From a virus: a stretch of DNA of 43,316 bases. The number at the start of each line of letters is the position of its first letter. Position 1 is the first letter of the stretch. Both the position numbers and the translations under genes were made by a program. This document shows positions 19,961 through 39,844 of the stretch, one piece after another. The notes below the pieces were generated by a model. The model was not told the DNA's origin and made no database searches. It was given only the letters and a program-made list of their open reading frames with translations. The DNA is taken from IMG/VR virus record IMGVR_UViG_3300008107_000723, positions 629 through 43,944 of that record; one strand, written 5' to 3'.

Positions 19961-21487
19961 TTAATAGTAAGCCGCTCTGCGCGGTGAATAAATTTTGTCG
20001 TCCCGATCATCTGATTCAAGCGAAATAAAGCCCCCTTGCCTAAAGCGCAGGAGTGCTTGAGAAGTCGTGTCTACGTAATCGTCGTGTTCGCCAACCGGGA
20101 AGGCTGCTACTTCCTCAATTACTTCTCGTGCCCATCGGGTGTCTGGTGCCCAGACTTTACCAGAAGTAAATAGGTCTGCAATAGCGTTGACTCGGACGAT
20201 TTTGTCGTTTCCTCTACTGGGGGAGAACTCTTGGACGGGGATGCCCATTGCTCTGATTTCTTGGATGAGGGGTGCGCCTGCGGCCTTTTTCTCCACAACG
20301 AAGGCATCCGGTTCCCACTCCTTATAGTGTCGTAGCGCAACTTGTTTTAATTCTGGAAAGTCCATACGGTCTTTAAACGCGTCCAGCAGAATCACTTGCG
20401 GCTCGTCCCGTTCTTCCTCATTGTAAAACACTCCCCACGTTGTGCAAGCAGAATAGTCAGCGGTAGTCTTAGCCTCAAACGCCGTATCCCAACTCTGGAT
20501 GATGTACTCACATTTCGGTGGATCGTCTTTCTCCCAGATGCGCCAGTGCCGTCTGGCAATAATTGCCGAGGCTTCCGAGGTAGGCTGCTGCATGTACTGG
20601 GCGTTCCAGTACCTAGGGTCAATCGACGCTTTGGTTTTCTTTAAGGCTTCCAACGGCCACTGCTCCGGCCAGAGCGACTTCTCGTTCTCTTCGTCCTGAT
20701 TAAGGATGGCTGGCAGTTCAACGATTTCCCACGGTATAGCTTCGGGGTTTCGCGTTTGGTAATCTACTAAGCGCCCCGTTAGGTCGAGCAACGACCACCT
20801 AGTCATAATAACTATGATTGCCCCGCCGGGCATGAGACGCTGCAATGGGCCGGTTTGAAACCAAGACCACGCTGTATCGAAGGCCAATCGTGAATTTGAC
20901 TTAACGTCCTGCTCAGAGTGAGGATCATCAATAACAAAAAGATCAGCACCACGACCGGCAAGAGCACCGCCAACACCTGCGGCATAATATTGCCCCCCTG
21001 CGCCCGTAGACCATTTACCTGCTGCCTTCTGATCGTCGGCAATGCGTGTGTGGGGAAATAAATCGTGGTACTCATCGGACTCAATTAAGTTACGGACTCG
21101 TCGTCCAAAATCTTCGGAAAGGCTGGCCGTGTGCGTTCCCATGATGATCTTCTTGTCTGGAAACTTGCCAAGGAAATACGCTGGGAACAGGTAAGAGGAA
21201 AACTCCGACTTACCCATACGCGGTGCAATATTAATAATTACCCGCTTCTTCTCTCCCGCAATCACCGACTCAAATATCTTGGAGAGCTTCTTGTGGTGGG
21301 GGCCAATTTTAAATCCCGGATACACATGCGTTGCAAACCCAAGCATGGAATCTTGCCCAATGATCTTACTGGCTCTGGCTGCGCGTTCTTCCAAATCGGC
21401 CAGTAGTTCGGCTTTCTCTCTAGGGTTTAGGCTAGGCAATACGCGTTGAAGGGCTTTGATTTCTTCAGGACTCAGGACTGCTTTCAT
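19961..21487 (-). CDS. terL: Terminase large subunit, 508 aa
   Basis: ATPase and nuclease that packages DNA. Walker A is at residues 88-95 (APRMGKSE), Walker B at 183-188 (LFVIDD) and the coupling motif at 228-231 (MTRW). In the C-terminal RNase H-like nuclease, D334 (QSWDTA) and D344 (TTADYSA) are the first acidic pair. Further acidic residues sit in FVVEKKAAG and near the end in GEHDDYVD. Length is normal. Its first codons overlap the last 23 bp of the small subunit gene. The spacing to the portal gene is 9 bp. Packaging mode (pac or cos) cannot be decided from the sequence alone. Confidence 0.9.
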   Translation of the reverse strand: MKAVLSPEEIKALQRVLPSLNPREKAELLADLEERAARASKIIGQDSMLGFATHVYPGFKIGPHHKKLSKIFESVIAGEKKRVIINIAPRMGKSEFSSYLFPAYFLGKFPDKKIIMGTHTASLSEDFGRRVRNLIESDEYHDLFPHTRIADDQKAAGKWSTGAGGQYYAAGVGGALAGRGADLFVIDDPHSEQDVKSNSRLAFDTAWSWFQTGPLQRLMPGGAIIVIMTRWSLLDLTGRLVDYQTRNPEAIPWEIVELPAILNQDEENEKSLWPEQWPLEALKKTKASIDPRYWNAQYMQQPTSEASAIIARRHWRIWEKDDPPKCEYIIQSWDTAFEAKTTADYSACTTWGVFYNEEERDEPQVILLDAFKDRMDFPELKQVALRHYKEWEPDAFVVEKKAAGAPLIQEIRAMGIPVQEFSPSRGNDKIVRVNAIADLFTSGKVWAPDTRWAREVIEEVAAFPVGEHDDYVDTTSQALLRFRQGGFISLESDDRDDKIYSPRRAAYY

Positions 21488-22094
21488 GCTCCTCCTGATC
21501 CATGTCTAAAGTTTGACCAGTGTCTTTTACATTCTCAATAATGTCTGTGACATCAGTAATCTCCACGATCTTAGCCATTTTCCCCAGCTTCTCTTTGATC
21601 CTAGCGTCCAGTTCTGAATCGGACAGCTCTGTCTTTTTGATCTCGATCTTCTCGGTGAACAAGCCAACCTCTGTGACCTTACCCAAAAGGGCCAAGGCTT
21701 TTAGTCTGACGGACGCGGTGGGATGCGTTGTCTCTTCCAAAATTTTAGCTACCGTGTAACCACGGAGTTCTTTAGCGCGTTCTACGAATTCCCAATCGTA
21801 CGCGGTTAACATGCCTACCAGATGTTGTACTGCTGCCGGAGTTTTTACTTGGGCAAGCGCAGCATGGGTATGATCTGGGTTTTGTGCAGTTATTAAACTA
21901 CTAAATGTTTCACGTGAAGCTTTAGCGTCTAGCTCGGTTGCTACTTCGTCGCCTACAGCGCCGAGTTCTTTAAGCCAGTCGGTCGTACTTATCTTAGCGT
22001 CCACGGCAGTAGCCGGGTCGGATTTTTCAAGCGAGACAAAGCCCGAGGATGTGCCCTCGACTTCGGGTTCAAAATCAATCAGGTGTTCTAACAT
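21465..22094 (-). CDS. Probable terminase small subunit, 209 aa
   Basis: It lies immediately upstream of terL with a 23-bp overlap. I placed the start at ATG 22094 (MLEHLIDFEPEVEG), with AAGG 9 nt ahead; a GTG at 22115 would add 7 residues. The core (EFVERAKELRGYTVAKILEE, TTHPTASVRLKALALLGKVT, EVGLFTEKIEIKK) is helical and resembles small terminase/DNA-recognition proteins of podovirus-like phages. The C-terminal tail is acidic (DTGQTLDMDQEEHESSPES). It should bind the packaging site and regulate the large subunit. The identification relies on neighbourhood plus pattern and is not certain. Confidence 0.72.
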   Translation of the reverse strand: MLEHLIDFEPEVEGTSSGFVSLEKSDPATAVDAKISTTDWLKELGAVGDEVATELDAKASRETFSSLITAQNPDHTHAALAQVKTPAAVQHLVGMLTAYDWEFVERAKELRGYTVAKILEETTHPTASVRLKALALLGKVTEVGLFTEKIEIKKTELSDSELDARIKEKLGKMAKIVEITDVTDIIENVKDTGQTLDMDQEEHESSPES

Positions 22095-22105: not shown

Positions 22106-22134
22106 TTGCAACCACGTTGGACGCAGTGTATATT
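22106..22134 (+). promoter_or_regulatory. Sigma70-type promoter for the small RNA
   Basis: TTGCAA at 22106-22111 (4 of 6 consensus) and TATATT at 22129-22134 (5 of 6) are separated by exactly 17 bp. Transcription would begin at about 22140-22142, which is the foot of the first stem-loop of the small RNA that follows. It points rightward, away from the terminase genes. It overlaps the terS 5' end only if the alternative GTG start at 22115 is used. Confidence 0.6.
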
Positions 22135-22140
22135 TAACTT

Positions 22141-22227
22141 TGCAAGTGTGCAAGCGGCAACGCTTACATTTGCTTCTCCTTCGCGTCAGCGAACTTTGTC
22201 CCTCAGTCACGGCTGGGGGATTTTTTT
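22141..22227 (+). ncRNA. Candidate phage small RNA with anti-Shine-Dalgarno seed
   Basis: About 87 nt folding into three stem-loops. SL1 (22142-22173): an 8-bp stem, GCAAGTGT with ACATTTGC (one G-U pair), a 2-nt bulge, a 5-bp stem AAGCG/CGCTT, and a GCAA tetraloop (GNRA type). A linker TTCTCC follows (22174-22179). SL2 (22180-22193): TTCGC/GCGAA with loop GTCA. SL3 (22199-22220): an 8-bp stem followed by TTTTTTT. A good promoter sits exactly upstream. Bases 22167-22181 are the reverse complement of AAGGAGAAGCAAATG, the ribosome-binding site plus start codon of early genes in this phage. The free linker covers the Shine-Dalgarno part; the start-codon part would need SL1 to open. No coding frame fits here. 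Confidence 0.62.
22199..22227 (+). terminator. Rho-independent terminator of the small RNA
   Basis: Stem TCCCTCAG / CTGGGGGA (8 bp with one G-U pair), loop TCACGG, then seven T. The T-run makes it specific for the plus strand; on the minus strand the hairpin is followed by CAAAG and should not terminate. No plus-strand protein gene lies to its left, so it only makes sense as the end of a short transcript. Confidence 0.75.
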
Positions 22228-22236
22228 GTCTGTGTA

Positions 22237-22252
22237 TGTCTAAGTTTAGACA
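22237..22252. promoter_or_regulatory. Palindromic operator candidate TGTC-N8-GACA, copy 1
   Basis: TGTCTAAGTTTAGACA: 7-bp arms around a 2-nt centre. Its right half contains TAGACA (22247-22252), which lies 17 bp upstream of TAGAAA (22270-22275) and could be a -35/-10 pair for rightward transcription. The same TGTC-N8-GACA layout recurs at 29687-29702 and 37990-38005. A dimeric helix-turn-helix repressor, possibly one of the phage's own small HTH proteins, could bind here. That is inference. Confidence 0.45.
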
Positions 22253-24996: not shown

Positions 24997-25028
24997 CTAA
25001 TCAGGCACAACAACCAAAGGAGAAGTAA

Positions 25029-25214
25029 ATGAACCAAGACCAACAACACGCAGCAGCAATACACATGAAGAAAGTAGGCGGCGGGTTTGCAAGCCGTCTA
25101 GCCGAAGCGTACCTGTACGCTGACTCATGGAACCAGCGCCGTATCTATGAGGCGTTCGAGGATTTGTTTGAGAGGCACTTACCAACCAAAGGAGAAGCAA
25201 ATGAAGTCATGTAG
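25029..25214 (+). CDS. Small early protein, 61 aa
   Basis: A 61-residue protein led by AACCAAAGGAGAAGTAA. It reads MNQDQQHAAAIHMKKVGGGF, ASRLAEAYLYADSWNQRRIY and EAFEDLFERHLPTKGEANEV. It is helical with a Lys/Arg face and aromatic residues. The pattern FA-x-x-L-A-E-A-Y-x-x-A-D-x-x-N is known from small phage proteins but without function. Its leader can pair with the small RNA (one G-U). Its end overlaps the next gene by 14 bp, so its last codons contain the next ribosome-binding site. Confidence 0.7.
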   Translation: MNQDQQHAAAIHMKKVGGGFASRLAEAYLYADSWNQRRIYEAFEDLFERHLPTKGEANEVM

Positions 25215-25663: not shown

Positions 25664-25677
25664 CTAAGGAGAAGCAA

Positions 25678-26073
25678 ATGAAAACCAATGAACTAACAGG
25701 CGCTGCCCTTGACTGGGCAGTCGCGCAATGCGAGGGGTTAAACCCAATACTAGGCAGTTCGTTTGAGCGTGGTCATGCAGACGGGCTTGATCGGTATCCG
25801 TTCGTGTACTTACATGAGCCAATGAAACACAACATCGCAGCACCTGCGTTTTATACAGGGTACACGCCATCAGTAAGTTGGTGGATAGGCGGGGAGATCA
25901 TCGAGCGCGAACGCATAGAGCTTGTGCCTGATGAGATATGGAACGCATACAAACAAGATCAACACATACCCAACACCGGCATGACCCCATTGATTGCAGC
26001 CATGCGCTGCTACGTGGCAAGCAAACTAGGTGACGATGTGGAAGTACCAGAAGAAGTAGTACTTGATAAATAA
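25678..26073 (+). CDS. DUF2591-like (phage ABA-sandwich) protein, 131 aa
   Basis: It starts MKTNELTGAALDWAVAQCEG, the hallmark of DUF2591 (phage ABA sandwich) proteins. It continues with YTGYTPSVSWWIGGEIIERE and has the usual end GMTPLIAAMRCYVASKLGDD plus VEVPEEV. Length is typical. These proteins are widespread in phages and prophages of Proteobacteria; no biochemical role is settled. The leader AAGGAGAAGCAAATG is a perfect small-RNA match. Confidence 0.82.
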   Translation: MKTNELTGAALDWAVAQCEGLNPILGSSFERGHADGLDRYPFVYLHEPMKHNIAAPAFYTGYTPSVSWWIGGEIIERERIELVPDEIWNAYKQDQHIPNTGMTPLIAAMRCYVASKLGDDVEVPEEVVLDK

Positions 26074-26091: not shown

Positions 26092-26110
26092 ATAACCAAA
26101 GGAGAAGCAC

Positions 26111-27520
26111 ATGAACACATACGAATACAACGGCGTTGACCGTTGGGATTGGATGATGGCAGCAGCCCAAGCGATACAGCGTGTGTACTACACCCATCTA
26201 TCAGAAAAGCATCATCGCAGTTGGCACGTCAGGGAACAGGAACGCTACAGCATGCACCCCGTCATTCAGAAAGCAGTCATGCTTGCACCGCCAGCCGACT
26301 GGCATCAGTTAGTTCTTGAGTGGCCGCATGTCAGCGTATCAAACGACACAAGCAAGATCGCCTACACCCGCAACGAGCAGCATGGCATCGACAACAGGCA
26401 GACGGCAACGTCAGTCGGTAAGTACATAACGCGACACTTCCCTACCCTTAAAGACCATGAGGTACGTGACTTGTGCGGTATGTACGGCGCGTCAACGTTC
26501 AAGATCACACATGACATGGAGCAGATGATCGACCTGCTACAGCGCGGCCCGAAGTCGTGCATGGTGTTTGACGAGAATGATTCCGACGATAGATGCGACG
26601 AGGGACATCCGTATCGGGTCTATGCGCCAGGTCTGGGCTGGGGTCTGGCAGTGCGCATGGTAGGCAATGGCGTCGATGGTCGGGCATTGGTCAACGAGAA
26701 TGACAAGTCGTTCGTGCGTAGCTATCGGCGTAATGAGAACGGCTACTCAGGGGCAGACGAGGACTTGCAGTCATGGCTCAACGATCAGGGGTACAGGCAC
26801 GTCAGGGGTTGGCAGTTAGGCACACGCTTGCGCTACATACCGTTCAGAAAGTACGGGCAAGACATACCCACCGCACCATATATCGACGGACAGAATCGCA
26901 GCGTCAGGGTTGACGAGTACACCAAGACGCTAATCATTGACGACGATGGTGAGTGGTTGTGTGACATGACCAACGGCGAGGCGCAAGAACAAAACGCATG
27001 TGTATGTCCTGACTGTAATGATCGTGTCCATGAGGATGAGATGAACTCTACGTATGACGGCAACGGCGAGTCGGTATGTAACTCATGCCTTGAGAACGAC
27101 TACTACTACGTGCATGGGCGTAATGAATACGAGTATTACGTACACCGCGATGATATGGTCGAGGTCAATGGCAACTACTACCACGATGAGTTCTTAGCAG
27201 ACAACGACATCGTTGAGCTGTATGACGGTGAGTATGAGGAGCGTGACAACACCGTGTGTATTGACGGCGACTACTACATGCACGACGACGAGCGGATTGT
27301 GCATTGCGAGGACACCGATGATTACGCGTTGATCGATGACTGCTGGCAATGCTTTGTGTCTGACAAGTGGTATGCAAGTGACGATCCGATACGCTTGTGC
27401 TGCATCGACAGCCAAGACGAGATCACCGTACACGAGGATGAGATACACCGCTACGAGTCCGACATTGCTTCATACGACCCCATCATTGACGCTTGCCTTT
27501 TCCAAACTGAAGGAGAATAA
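26111..27520 (+). CDS. Cys/Tyr/Asp-rich protein with zinc-ribbon-like and YYHDD-type repeats, 469 aa
   Basis: Residues 1-285 hold no named domain (WMMAAAQAIQRVYYTHLSEK, RHFPTLKDHEVRDLCGMYGA, HVRGWQLGTRLRYIPFRK). From residue about 297 a zinc-ribbon-like pair appears: CVCPDCNDRVHEDE and VCNSCLENDYYYVH. It is followed by five or six short units of about 20-25 residues with hydrophobic-acidic cores (YYVHRDDMVEVNGNYYHDEF, VCIDGDYYMHDDERIVHCED, CWQCFVSDKWYASDD, ITVHEDEIH). The C-terminal 170 residues are very rich in Asp, Glu, Tyr, His and Cys, a good metal-binding composition. It may be a DNA-mimic or multi-zinc scaffold; neither is shown. It is the largest early gene and its leader pairs with the small RNA with one mismatch. 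Confidence 0.75.
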   Translation: MNTYEYNGVDRWDWMMAAAQAIQRVYYTHLSEKHHRSWHVREQERYSMHPVIQKAVMLAPPADWHQLVLEWPHVSVSNDTSKIAYTRNEQHGIDNRQTATSVGKYITRHFPTLKDHEVRDLCGMYGASTFKITHDMEQMIDLLQRGPKSCMVFDENDSDDRCDEGHPYRVYAPGLGWGLAVRMVGNGVDGRALVNENDKSFVRSYRRNENGYSGADEDLQSWLNDQGYRHVRGWQLGTRLRYIPFRKYGQDIPTAPYIDGQNRSVRVDEYTKTLIIDDDGEWLCDMTNGEAQEQNACVCPDCNDRVHEDEMNSTYDGNGESVCNSCLENDYYYVHGRNEYEYYVHRDDMVEVNGNYYHDEFLADNDIVELYDGEYEERDNTVCIDGDYYMHDDERIVHCEDTDDYALIDDCWQCFVSDKWYASDDPIRLCCIDSQDEITVHEDEIHRYESDIASYDPIIDACLFQTEGE

Positions 27521-28592: not shown

Positions 28593-28604
28593 AAGGAGAA
28601 GCAA

Positions 28605-28841
28605 ATGACTAGAAAGAAATCACGTTACACAGAAGCAGCCATAACCAAACGTCGGCTTGAGGATATACGAGCAGGCGAGGTACATGAGGCACTACACGCA
28701 GCGTTTTTTAATAGGTCGCCCGTGAACGTGAGAGAGGTACGCGACCGCTTAGACCCCGCGTTGAAAGCAATGGAGATACGGGAGATATTAAAAGTAGACT
28801 TAACCAACGGCGGAGACGGTGATGACCCCACTTATAACTGA
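28605..28841 (+). CDS. Small basic early protein, 78 aa
   Basis: A 78-residue protein starting MTRKKSRYTEAAITKRRLED with helices (VHEALHAAFFNRSPVNVREV, RDRLDPALKAMEIREILKVD). It is basic at the front and acidic at the end. The leader is a perfect match to the small-RNA seed and lies right after a terminator, so expression would depend on read-through or an unseen promoter. Overlaps the next gene by 20 bp. No family recognised. Confidence 0.68.
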   Translation: MTRKKSRYTEAAITKRRLEDIRAGEVHEALHAAFFNRSPVNVREVRDRLDPALKAMEIREILKVDLTNGGDGDDPTYN

Positions 28842-34863: not shown

Positions 34864-34876
34864 TAAGGAGAGGCAA

Positions 34877-35206
34877 ATGGAAAACATTAAAAAGAAACAA
34901 ACAGAATTCCCACGCAGTATTCGTGTGGGAAAGAAACGCTACTCAATTGACGTAGTGGAATCAATGATTCAGCGTGGCGATATGGCACGTGTGCACTACG
35001 ATAAAAACTCAATAGAGATAGGCAAGCGCAGTAACAAAACAGGACGTAAGTTTGGCAGGAAACAAATGCACGATTCGTTCTGGCATGAGCTGGTACACGC
35101 AATACTCTATGACATGGATGCCCATGCACTAAACAAGAACGAGAAGTTTGTAACTGAGTTTGCTTCCCGTCTATCAGAAGCAATTGACTCTGCGAGGTTT
35201 GAATAA
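34877..35206 (+). CDS. HExxH zincin-like protein, 109 aa
   Basis: The start ATG 34877 follows AAGGAGAGGCAA; the longer frame upstream is a shadow in the polymerase end. The helix FWHELVHAILYDM (residues 69-80) carries H70-E71-L-V-H74, the zinc-binding HExxH motif, followed by ALNKNEKFVTEFASRLSEAI where the glutamate could be a third ligand. Front half is a small beta region (FPRSIRVGKKRYSIDVVESM). This resembles small SprT-like/putative metalloprotease proteins of phages. The substrate is unknown. Leader can pair with the small RNA with one G-U. Confidence 0.75.
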   Translation: MENIKKKQTEFPRSIRVGKKRYSIDVVESMIQRGDMARVHYDKNSIEIGKRSNKTGRKFGRKQMHDSFWHELVHAILYDMDAHALNKNEKFVTEFASRLSEAIDSARFE

Positions 35207-36363: not shown

Positions 36364-36524
36364 CATTTGAACAGTGGTGGGAGTCCCTCAGTGAGTCAGA
36401 GAAAAAGTTTTTAGGTATCCACAACGCTCGCTATTGTTGGTTAGAGGGGCACAAGTGTGGATACAGTAAAGGATATAAAGATGCGAAAGACATCATAACT
36501 GGAGAAGTAGATGCAAATAATTGA
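36360..36524 (+). CDS. Small protein, 54 aa
   Basis: A 54-codon frame starting in the overlap with the HNH stop (AAATGA). It reads MTFEQWWESLSESEKKFLGI, HNARYCWLEGHKCGYSKGYK and DAKDIITGEVDANN. This F-x-x-W-W...A-x-x-W-x-x-G-x-x-x-G-x-x-x-G pattern is known from small phage helical-hairpin proteins. Its end overlaps the next start by 14 bp. Confidence 0.62.
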   Translation: MTFEQWWESLSESEKKFLGIHNARYCWLEGHKCGYSKGYKDAKDIITGEVDANN

Positions 36525-38005: not shown

Positions 38006-38025
38006 AACAATAATAGGAGAAGCAG

Positions 38026-38439
38026 ATGTCCGATACAGTCACAGAGCTTATTCCAATGGATAAGCTCGCAAAGATTTATCGCAAGATCAAGGAAGAAATT
38101 GATGTGCTGACAAAGGAGTACGACACCAAAGTCGAACTGCTCAAAGCACAGCAAGACGAACTTCGTTTTGCAATGAAAGACCAGATGAAAGCCCTCGGGG
38201 TCAAGTCTGTTAACACCACCTTCGGCACCGTGTCTATGATTAACAAGACGCGTTACAGCACAGATGATTGGGACTCGTTCAAGAAGTTTGTTGTTATGAA
38301 CGACGTTGTTGATCTTCTGGAAAAGCGTATTGCTCAAACCAATATGGCTCGGTTCCTCGAAGAAAATCCCGGCAGTGTACCGCCCGGATTAAATGCCTTT
38401 TCTGATTTTGAAATCAGAGTTACTAAACCCTCTAAGTGA
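38026..38439 (+). CDS. Coiled-coil protein before SSB, 137 aa
   Basis: A 137-residue protein with a long coiled coil (residues 10-60: MDKLAKIYRKIKEEIDVLTK, EYDTKVELLKAQQDELRFAM, KDQMKALG), a small conserved-looking middle (SVNTTFGTVSMINKTRYSTD, DWDSFKKFVVMND) and a helical end. It resembles Gp157-like phage proteins that occur near recombination genes. The leader AATAGGAGAAGCAGATG matches the small-RNA seed with one G-U pair. It may partner the ssDNA-binding protein that follows. Confidence 0.72.
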   Translation: MSDTVTELIPMDKLAKIYRKIKEEIDVLTKEYDTKVELLKAQQDELRFAMKDQMKALGVKSVNTTFGTVSMINKTRYSTDDWDSFKKFVVMNDVVDLLEKRIAQTNMARFLEENPGSVPPGLNAFSDFEIRVTKPSK

Positions 38440-39393: not shown

Positions 39394-39583
39394 AGCTACG
39401 GGGGAAAGCGGATGCTGGTGACTGCACCTCCTATGCGGTTATGGCGTGCCAGACGCAGCGAGTACCCCACCAAACAGCCCAGCCGGAGGTGGCGCATATA
39501 ACACCGGCAGCGGGGGCTAGAGTTTCCTTTGGTTGTAGCTACACCTACTTTAGTGACCCCGCACCTTTTTATAGGAGAAGCAA
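39394..39583 (+). other. GC-rich non-coding gap, possible 29-aa ORF or structured RNA
   Basis: About 190 bp after the SSB stop has higher G+C than its neighbours and no long convincing frame. One small frame (ATG 39412 to TAA 39501, MLVTAPPMRLWRARRSEYPT and 9 more residues) follows GGGGGA and is very basic. GGTG/CACC and CCGG/CCGG pairs around 39485-39515 could fold. The remainder up to 39571 shows only the leader ATAGGAGAAGC of the next gene. Nothing firm. Confidence 0.35.
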
Positions 39584-39844
39584 ATGTTTGATGGAAAAAC
39601 ATACAACGCAGAACGCGACAAAGATCGCTTAAAGACACAACTGTTTAATGTCTGGCGGCTAATGAAAGACAGCCGTTGGAGAACGTTGGAGCAGATTTCA
39701 GAGAAGGTTGGTTGTCCTGAAGCAAGTGTAAGTGCAAGGCTTCGGGATTTCCGTAAACGCCAGTTCGGTAGCCATACAGTTGAACGCGAGTATGTGCGCC
39801 GAGGTTTATTCAAGTATCGACTTATACCCAATGAAGAACACTAA
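39584..39844 (+). CDS. Winged-helix protein, 86 aa
   Basis: An 86-residue wHTH: DRLKTQLFNVWRLMKDSRWR, TLEQISEKVGCPEASVSARL, RDFRKRQFGSHTVEREYVRR, ending GLFKYRLI. The L-x-x-I-x-x-x-x-G-x-x-E-A-S-V-S-A-R-L-R-D-x-R-K motif is frequent in small phage proteins beside replication genes. It probably binds DNA at the origin or a promoter. The leader AGGAGAAGCAAATG is a 14-nt exact match to the small-RNA seed. Stop and next start share TAATG. Confidence 0.78.
   Translation: MFDGKTYNAERDKDRLKTQLFNVWRLMKDSRWRTLEQISEKVGCPEASVSARLRDFRKRQFGSHTVEREYVRRGLFKYRLIPNEEH

Follow-up and report, generated by a model that had tools for sequence, protein, structure and literature searches.

The Candidate sRNA Locus

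The window, by which we mean the whole 43,316-nucleotide stretch of viral DNA analyzed here, belongs to a 43,944-base IMG/VR record. Its terL gene is assigned to phrog_38 and has nearest named relatives that are ~50-53% identical, including the Pelagibacter phages HTVC027P and HTVC023P and the freshwater phage DSL-LC04. Upstream of terL, an ORF in the terS position opens the late strand, and between this minus-strand gene and the early module lies a candidate sRNA, which is read from the same strand as the early module. The locus contains the following features.

21465..22094, minus strand: ORF in the terS position, upstream of terL; first gene of the late strand, with the sRNA antisense to its 5' leader
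22106..22134, plus strand: putative sigma-70-like sRNA promoter (TTGCAA, 17, TATATT)
22141..22227, plus strand: candidate sRNA, about 87 nt; fold z -4.6, architecture conserved in 62/64 distinct relatives
22142..22173, plus strand: stem-loop 1; the 5' half of the seed forms its 3' arm
22167..22181, plus strand: seed CATTTGCTTCTCCTT, complementary to a Shine-Dalgarno (SD) sequence plus start codon, with TTCTCC unpaired in the linker
22180..22193, plus strand: stem-loop 2, identified by fold and covariation
22198..22227, plus strand: intrinsic terminator (stem 22198-22221, then 7 T)

The promoter, stem 1, the free TTCTCC linker, stem 2 and the seven-T terminator all lie where the original prediction, made by a model from the sequence alone, had placed them, and the seed was confirmed to be the exact reverse complement of AAGGAGAAGCAAATG. 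Folding of the RNA likewise bore out the proposed structure of three hairpins and a free linker, with an MFE of -37.2 (z = -4.6) that was equaled by 0 of 200 shuffled sequences. Taken alone, the window promoter is at chance level (1 found vs 0.9 expected); its position is kept in relatives, with -10 boxes of TATACT or TACACT. Opposite the seed, at 22164-22181, the minus strand reads as an SD-ATG-TAA start-stop mini-ORF within the late leader, the ATG of which is kept in only about half of the relatives.

Conservation and Structure Across Relatives

A terL search of IMG/VR yielded 80 loci that are 75-100% identical, one of which (L005) has both a terL and an sRNA identical to those of the window. 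Of the 80 sequences long enough to judge, which comprise IMG/VR relatives and fragments of the window, 78 have the promoter, hairpin, TTCTCC linker, second hairpin and terminator. The sRNA is located 650-750 nt from terL on the opposite strand, and its recurring pattern consists of a TATACT/TACACT box, a GCAAG-type stem, TTCTCC, the second hairpin, and a G/C-rich terminator followed by T's, with a U-tail mostly of 7. A Chitinophagales MAG contig, the terL of which is 61% identical, also carries the sRNA. Among named phages, a DNA-level search gave no match, the sRNA pattern was not found near terL in HTVC027P, HTVC023P, DSL-LC04, 023Pt_psg01 (terL ~50%) or MinM2 (43%), and a search of the whole records of these phages with the Rfam model RF02278, discussed below, returned nothing above the cut-off. 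A match to the extra-T seed pattern in G028, which has neither promoter nor terminator, was dropped as a chance match.

The RNAs extracted from the 78 entries represent 64 distinct sequences. Nearly all of these (62/64) fold with at least three hairpins, 57/64 leave the seed core mostly free, and the median fold z is -4.0, or -2.9 when the terminator is removed. In a 28-sequence alignment, 83.9% of positions in stems 1 and 2 are paired, vs 68.5% after shuffling, and the covariation score of these stems is 0.499, vs 0.269 when shuffled and at most 0.208 when slid, with two-sided changes in 10 of their 13 pairs. Stem 1, for which a lack of covariation had been named as evidence against the element, is paired in 96% of cells and contains two-sided changes in 4 of 7 pairs; both stems thus covary. 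Stem 2 has 44 distinct outer arms among the 64 relatives. In L066, together with L018, L024, L037, L052 and L064, stem 2 carries a second CTCCTT in its 3' arm; this sequence is itself complementary to AAGGAG and is possibly a second pairing site.

Predicted Target Leaders

Sites of the AAGGAGAAGCAAATG type with two or fewer mismatches number 12 in the window, including the seed itself, vs 0.06 expected, and none of 100 shuffles reached this count. The predicted targets, all on the plus strand, are as follows.

25017..25031: leader of ORF 25029 (61 aa), one G-U pair
25189..25203: leader of ORF 25201 (64 aa), exact
25666..25680: leader of ORF 25678 (131 aa, NinX-like, PF10765), exact
26099..26113: leader of ORF 26111 (469 aa, no family match), one mismatch
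28593..28607: leader of ORF 28605 (78 aa), exact
34865..34879: leader of ORF 34877 (109 aa, contains HELVH), one G-U pair
36501..36513: leader of ORF 36511 (48 aa), weak predicted target, -8.0 kcal/mol
38014..38028: leader of ORF 38026 (137 aa, weak Mu Gam-like match), one G-U pair
39572..39586: leader of ORF 39584 (86 aa), 14 nt exact (39573-39586)

The coordinates originally given for these sites proved correct, i.e., exact matches at 25189, 25666 and 28593, a 14-nt match at 39573, matches with a G-U pair at 25017, 34865 and 38015, and one-mismatch sites at 26099 and 29579. Their description as early-gene targets holds for all sites except 29579, each immediately preceding a plausible early ORF; 29579 is doubtful as a target, as it precedes merely a 30-codon ORF. 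The shorter site proposed at 36501 does lie in the leader of ORF 36511, but its interaction is weak. When the cost of opening stem 1 is counted, the named targets account for eight of the nine strongest interactions between the sRNA and leaders of the window, at -11 to -13.8 kcal/mol.

Complementarity to the seed distinguishes early from late leaders. Uninterrupted complementarity to the phage's own seed over 9 nt or more occurs in 130 of 415 distinct early GGAG leaders vs 1 of 210 late ones (p = 1.6e-25), in line with the prediction that structural genes would be spared. AACCAAAGGAG is common to many early leaders, and GGAG sites outside leaders almost never match the seed. The first genes adjoining the sRNA have leaders without the GCAA part; matching leaders start 2.3-2.9 kb from the sRNA in the window and in five genomes with an extra T in the seed (L026, L044, G025, G026 and G032).

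Among the predicted targets, the most consistent is the gene at 26111-27520, which encodes a 469-aa acidic protein without Pfam or PHROG match. The protein is conserved in many relatives, its family ranges from 469 to 582 aa, and the leaders of its orthologs still match their own seeds. The other conserved targets are the small protein encoded at 38026 and the HELVH-containing protein encoded at 34877. The latter (34877-35206) is a small conserved member of phrog_1233 (unknown), in which FWHELVHAI constitutes a zinc-metalloprotease-like HExxH motif.

Covariation of the Seed with Early Leaders

Early genes were read from long contigs of the relatives, the variant seeds of which include CTCCTG, CTCCTA, GCTATCTCC and TTTACTTCTCC. 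Phages with the seed GCTTCTCC have 41 GGAGAAGYA and 16 GGAGAAAGYA leaders, whereas those with one extra T (GCTTTCTCC) have 1 and 22, respectively (deduplicated Fisher p = 4e-6); the extra-T seed type is a single clade, and its 22 leaders are therefore not 22 independent events. Within this clade, the A-type L036 has one AAAG leader. The change can also be followed in individual orthologs. The leader of the 26111 gene reads GGAGAAGCA in the window and L013 and GGAGAAAGCA in six extra-T genomes, while for the 38026 gene four A-seed genomes have GGAGAAGCA, two extra-T genomes have GGAGAAAGCA and L072 has CATCAGGAG; the leader of the 34877 gene changes in parallel with these two across orthologs. 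Orthologs of the primase gene (40314) lack the motif throughout.

On the other side of the SD core, leader bases -2 and -3 before GGAG track the seed (p = 2e-9 and 4e-8, respectively), with the reservation that the covariation tests count related sequences and their p values therefore overstate independence. Thus, phages with the seed CTCCTGA have TCAGGAG leaders, and the seeds CTCCTGTG, CTCCTACT and CTCCTTGA are accompanied by ACAGGAG, GTAGGAG and CAAGGAG leaders, respectively. These seed types occupy separate branches of the terL tree.

The TTCTCC core matches any SD sequence, and part of the complementarity is therefore generic. In an energy-based seed-swapping test, the phage's own seed ranked first in just 3 of 27 genomes; this test is uninformative because the SD core dominates the energies, and contiguous matches anchored on GGAG were therefore used. 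By this measure, leaders are matched better by the seed of their own phage than by a swapped one (p <= 5e-5), also when swaps were restricted to within terL clades (p = 1.6e-4). A retention of leaders with loss of complementarity, which had been named as an outcome that would speak against the sRNA, was not seen overall. The poorer fits are L015, in which AAAG leaders predominate despite the seed AAGCAGAT, and L060 and the CTCCTC seeds, the leaders of which are without the matching G.

Relationship to Known Regulatory RNAs

The best Rfam matches, RF02278 (Betaproteobacteria toxic sRNA) and RF02837 (anti-hemB), fall exactly on the phage RNA. RF02278 includes ncS03, ncS05, ncS27 and ncS62 of Burkholderia cenocepacia and S17S of Bordetella pertussis. 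The B. cenocepacia RNAs contain a CU-rich region complementary to ribosome binding sites (RBSs), and growth is attenuated when ncS27 is overexpressed (PMC5688073). S17S has a related 5' end; of the genes that are more highly expressed when it is absent, 70 show complementarity near their RBS (PMC11722255). The phage RNA shares with this family an unpaired UCUCCU, a hairpin and a terminator hairpin with a U-tail, and its alignment spans the full model. Matches at E <= 0.5 were obtained in 32 of 46 records; none of the 46 reached the gathering score of 50 bits, the best having 28.7 bits and the window 19.7 bits. Unlike RF02278 RNAs, the phage RNA places half of its seed in an extra 5' stem, is phage-encoded, and has a variable seed that coevolves with the phage's own leaders. 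From its sequence, it appears to work like the RF02278 RNAs, yet it falls outside the family by the curated score.

Anti-hemB resembles the phage RNA in its CUUCUCCU motif and U-tailed terminator hairpin, and its weak match overlaps the phage RNA at 18.7-24.7 bits, below the gathering score of 49.5. The motif lies in a loop in anti-hemB, whereas it lies in the linker of the phage RNA. Among phage RNAs, the c4 antisense RNA of P1/P7 (RF01695) likewise covers an RBS by pairing (PMC12197685). Its role in immunity is to control a single linked gene, ant, whereas the sRNA described here would be free-standing, with many targets in trans. c4 RNA is cut from a longer transcript, and the Rfam search of the window gave no match to RF01695. 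VpdS of VP882 and PreS of lambda are Hfq-dependent sRNAs that are also phage-encoded and act by base pairing; PreS is directed at host dnaN and VpdS at RNAs of both host and phage, and the review that covers them describes no regulon defined by a common leader in which seed and targets covary (PMC12197685). In the literature searched, no phage RNA of this kind had been described.

The phages that bear the sRNA form a lake and river group. A GTDB scan for their host recovered only four MAG contigs, and the labels of these are mixed. A betaproteobacterial host is a candidate only, suggested by the resemblance to Rfam RNAs. A Rhodocyclaceae MAG (G034) encodes an RF02278 RNA at full score (C69:32339-32407, 55.3 bits), and its contig L124 has a terL that is 57% identical, which offers a hint of the host group.

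Proposed Mechanism and Alternatives

The element combines a promoter and intrinsic terminator with structure, conservation, and a seed that complements the RBSs of unlinked targets and covaries with them, i.e., the properties by which trans-acting base-pairing sRNAs are recognized. We consider it probable that 22141-22227 specifies a phage sRNA acting in trans, which would mask the SD and start codon on a set of early mRNAs of the same phage. The RNA of this lytic-type phage would be made from its own host-type promoter and ended by its own terminator. The free UUCUCC linker would nucleate pairing with AGGAGAA of target SD sites, and pairing would then extend 5' into stem 1 across GCAAAUG and 3' toward stem 2. 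Since the duplex predicted in silico covers both the SD and the start codon, ribosomes should be unable to bind. The targets would be about eight of the phage's early genes past the first few, while late structural genes, having other leaders, would be spared. As the sRNA builds up, it would silence the early set at the level of translation, leaving more ribosomes for late mRNAs; repression of the 26111, 38026 and 34877 proteins once they have been made would aid the switch to late genes. Transcription of the sRNA, repression, its timing and help from Hfq are inferred, and a U7 tail suits Hfq binding.

The resemblance to toxic sRNAs raises the possibility that the RNA is mainly a general anti-SD RNA that slows host translation, the phage matches being a by-product. 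Its UUCUCC core could pair with any AGGAGAA, and ncS27 attenuates growth when overexpressed (PMC5688073), but seed bases outside this core change together with the leaders of the same phage and the match is found in early rather than late leaders, so that we regard this explanation as unlikely. The sequence evidence is shared by models in which the early leaders serve as a sponge that titrates the sRNA, about eight targets being able to absorb a modest amount of RNA, or in which pairing activates or stabilizes the mRNAs. Pairing over the SD and AUG normally blocks initiation, however, and the similar S17S represses via RBS pairing (PMC11722255), which makes these models unlikely, slightly more so than the anti-SD explanation.

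The SD-ATG-stop of the minus strand and the antisense position of the sRNA relative to the leader of the terS-position gene could instead reflect a function on the other strand, as late-operon leader or mini-ORF (AAGGAGAAGCAAATG-TAA), or a purely cis-antisense role toward the late leader. We find this very improbable, given that CAT, the complement of the ATG, occurs in only 43 of 79 genomes, that a T-run follows the hairpin on the plus strand only, and that a cis role leaves the covariation with distant leaders unexplained. The occurrence of AACCAAAGGAG in so many early leaders might also suggest a house style, with the seed matching by chance or through a shared SD preference; against the shuffled site counts, the near absence of matches at GGAG sites outside leaders and the poorer fit of swapped seeds, this account is barely credible.

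The timing of phage gene expression is usually attributed to promoters and proteins. If repression by the trans-acting sRNA is correct, the conserved RNA and the shared leader would form a compact RNA-based timing device that turns off early genes jointly, and seed-target covariation in these uncultivated phages would provide a natural data set on one seed evolving with many targets. More tentatively, and with the balance somewhat against it, these freshwater phages may have captured or copied a host double-hairpin anti-SD sRNA and retargeted it to their own early genes, creating a lineage-wide early-to-late translational switch in which the seed and about eight leaders coevolve. This would be a possible case of a phage adapting a host sRNA design for itself.

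Immediately 3' of the sRNA terminator, at 22237-22252, lies a 16-bp palindrome, TGTCTAAGTTTAGACA, of which weaker versions occur at 21503 and 37990. In 50 of 79 relatives, a TGTC(N)GACA repeat is found near the corresponding position, and the palindrome is possibly an operator for a phage regulator acting between the early and late modules.
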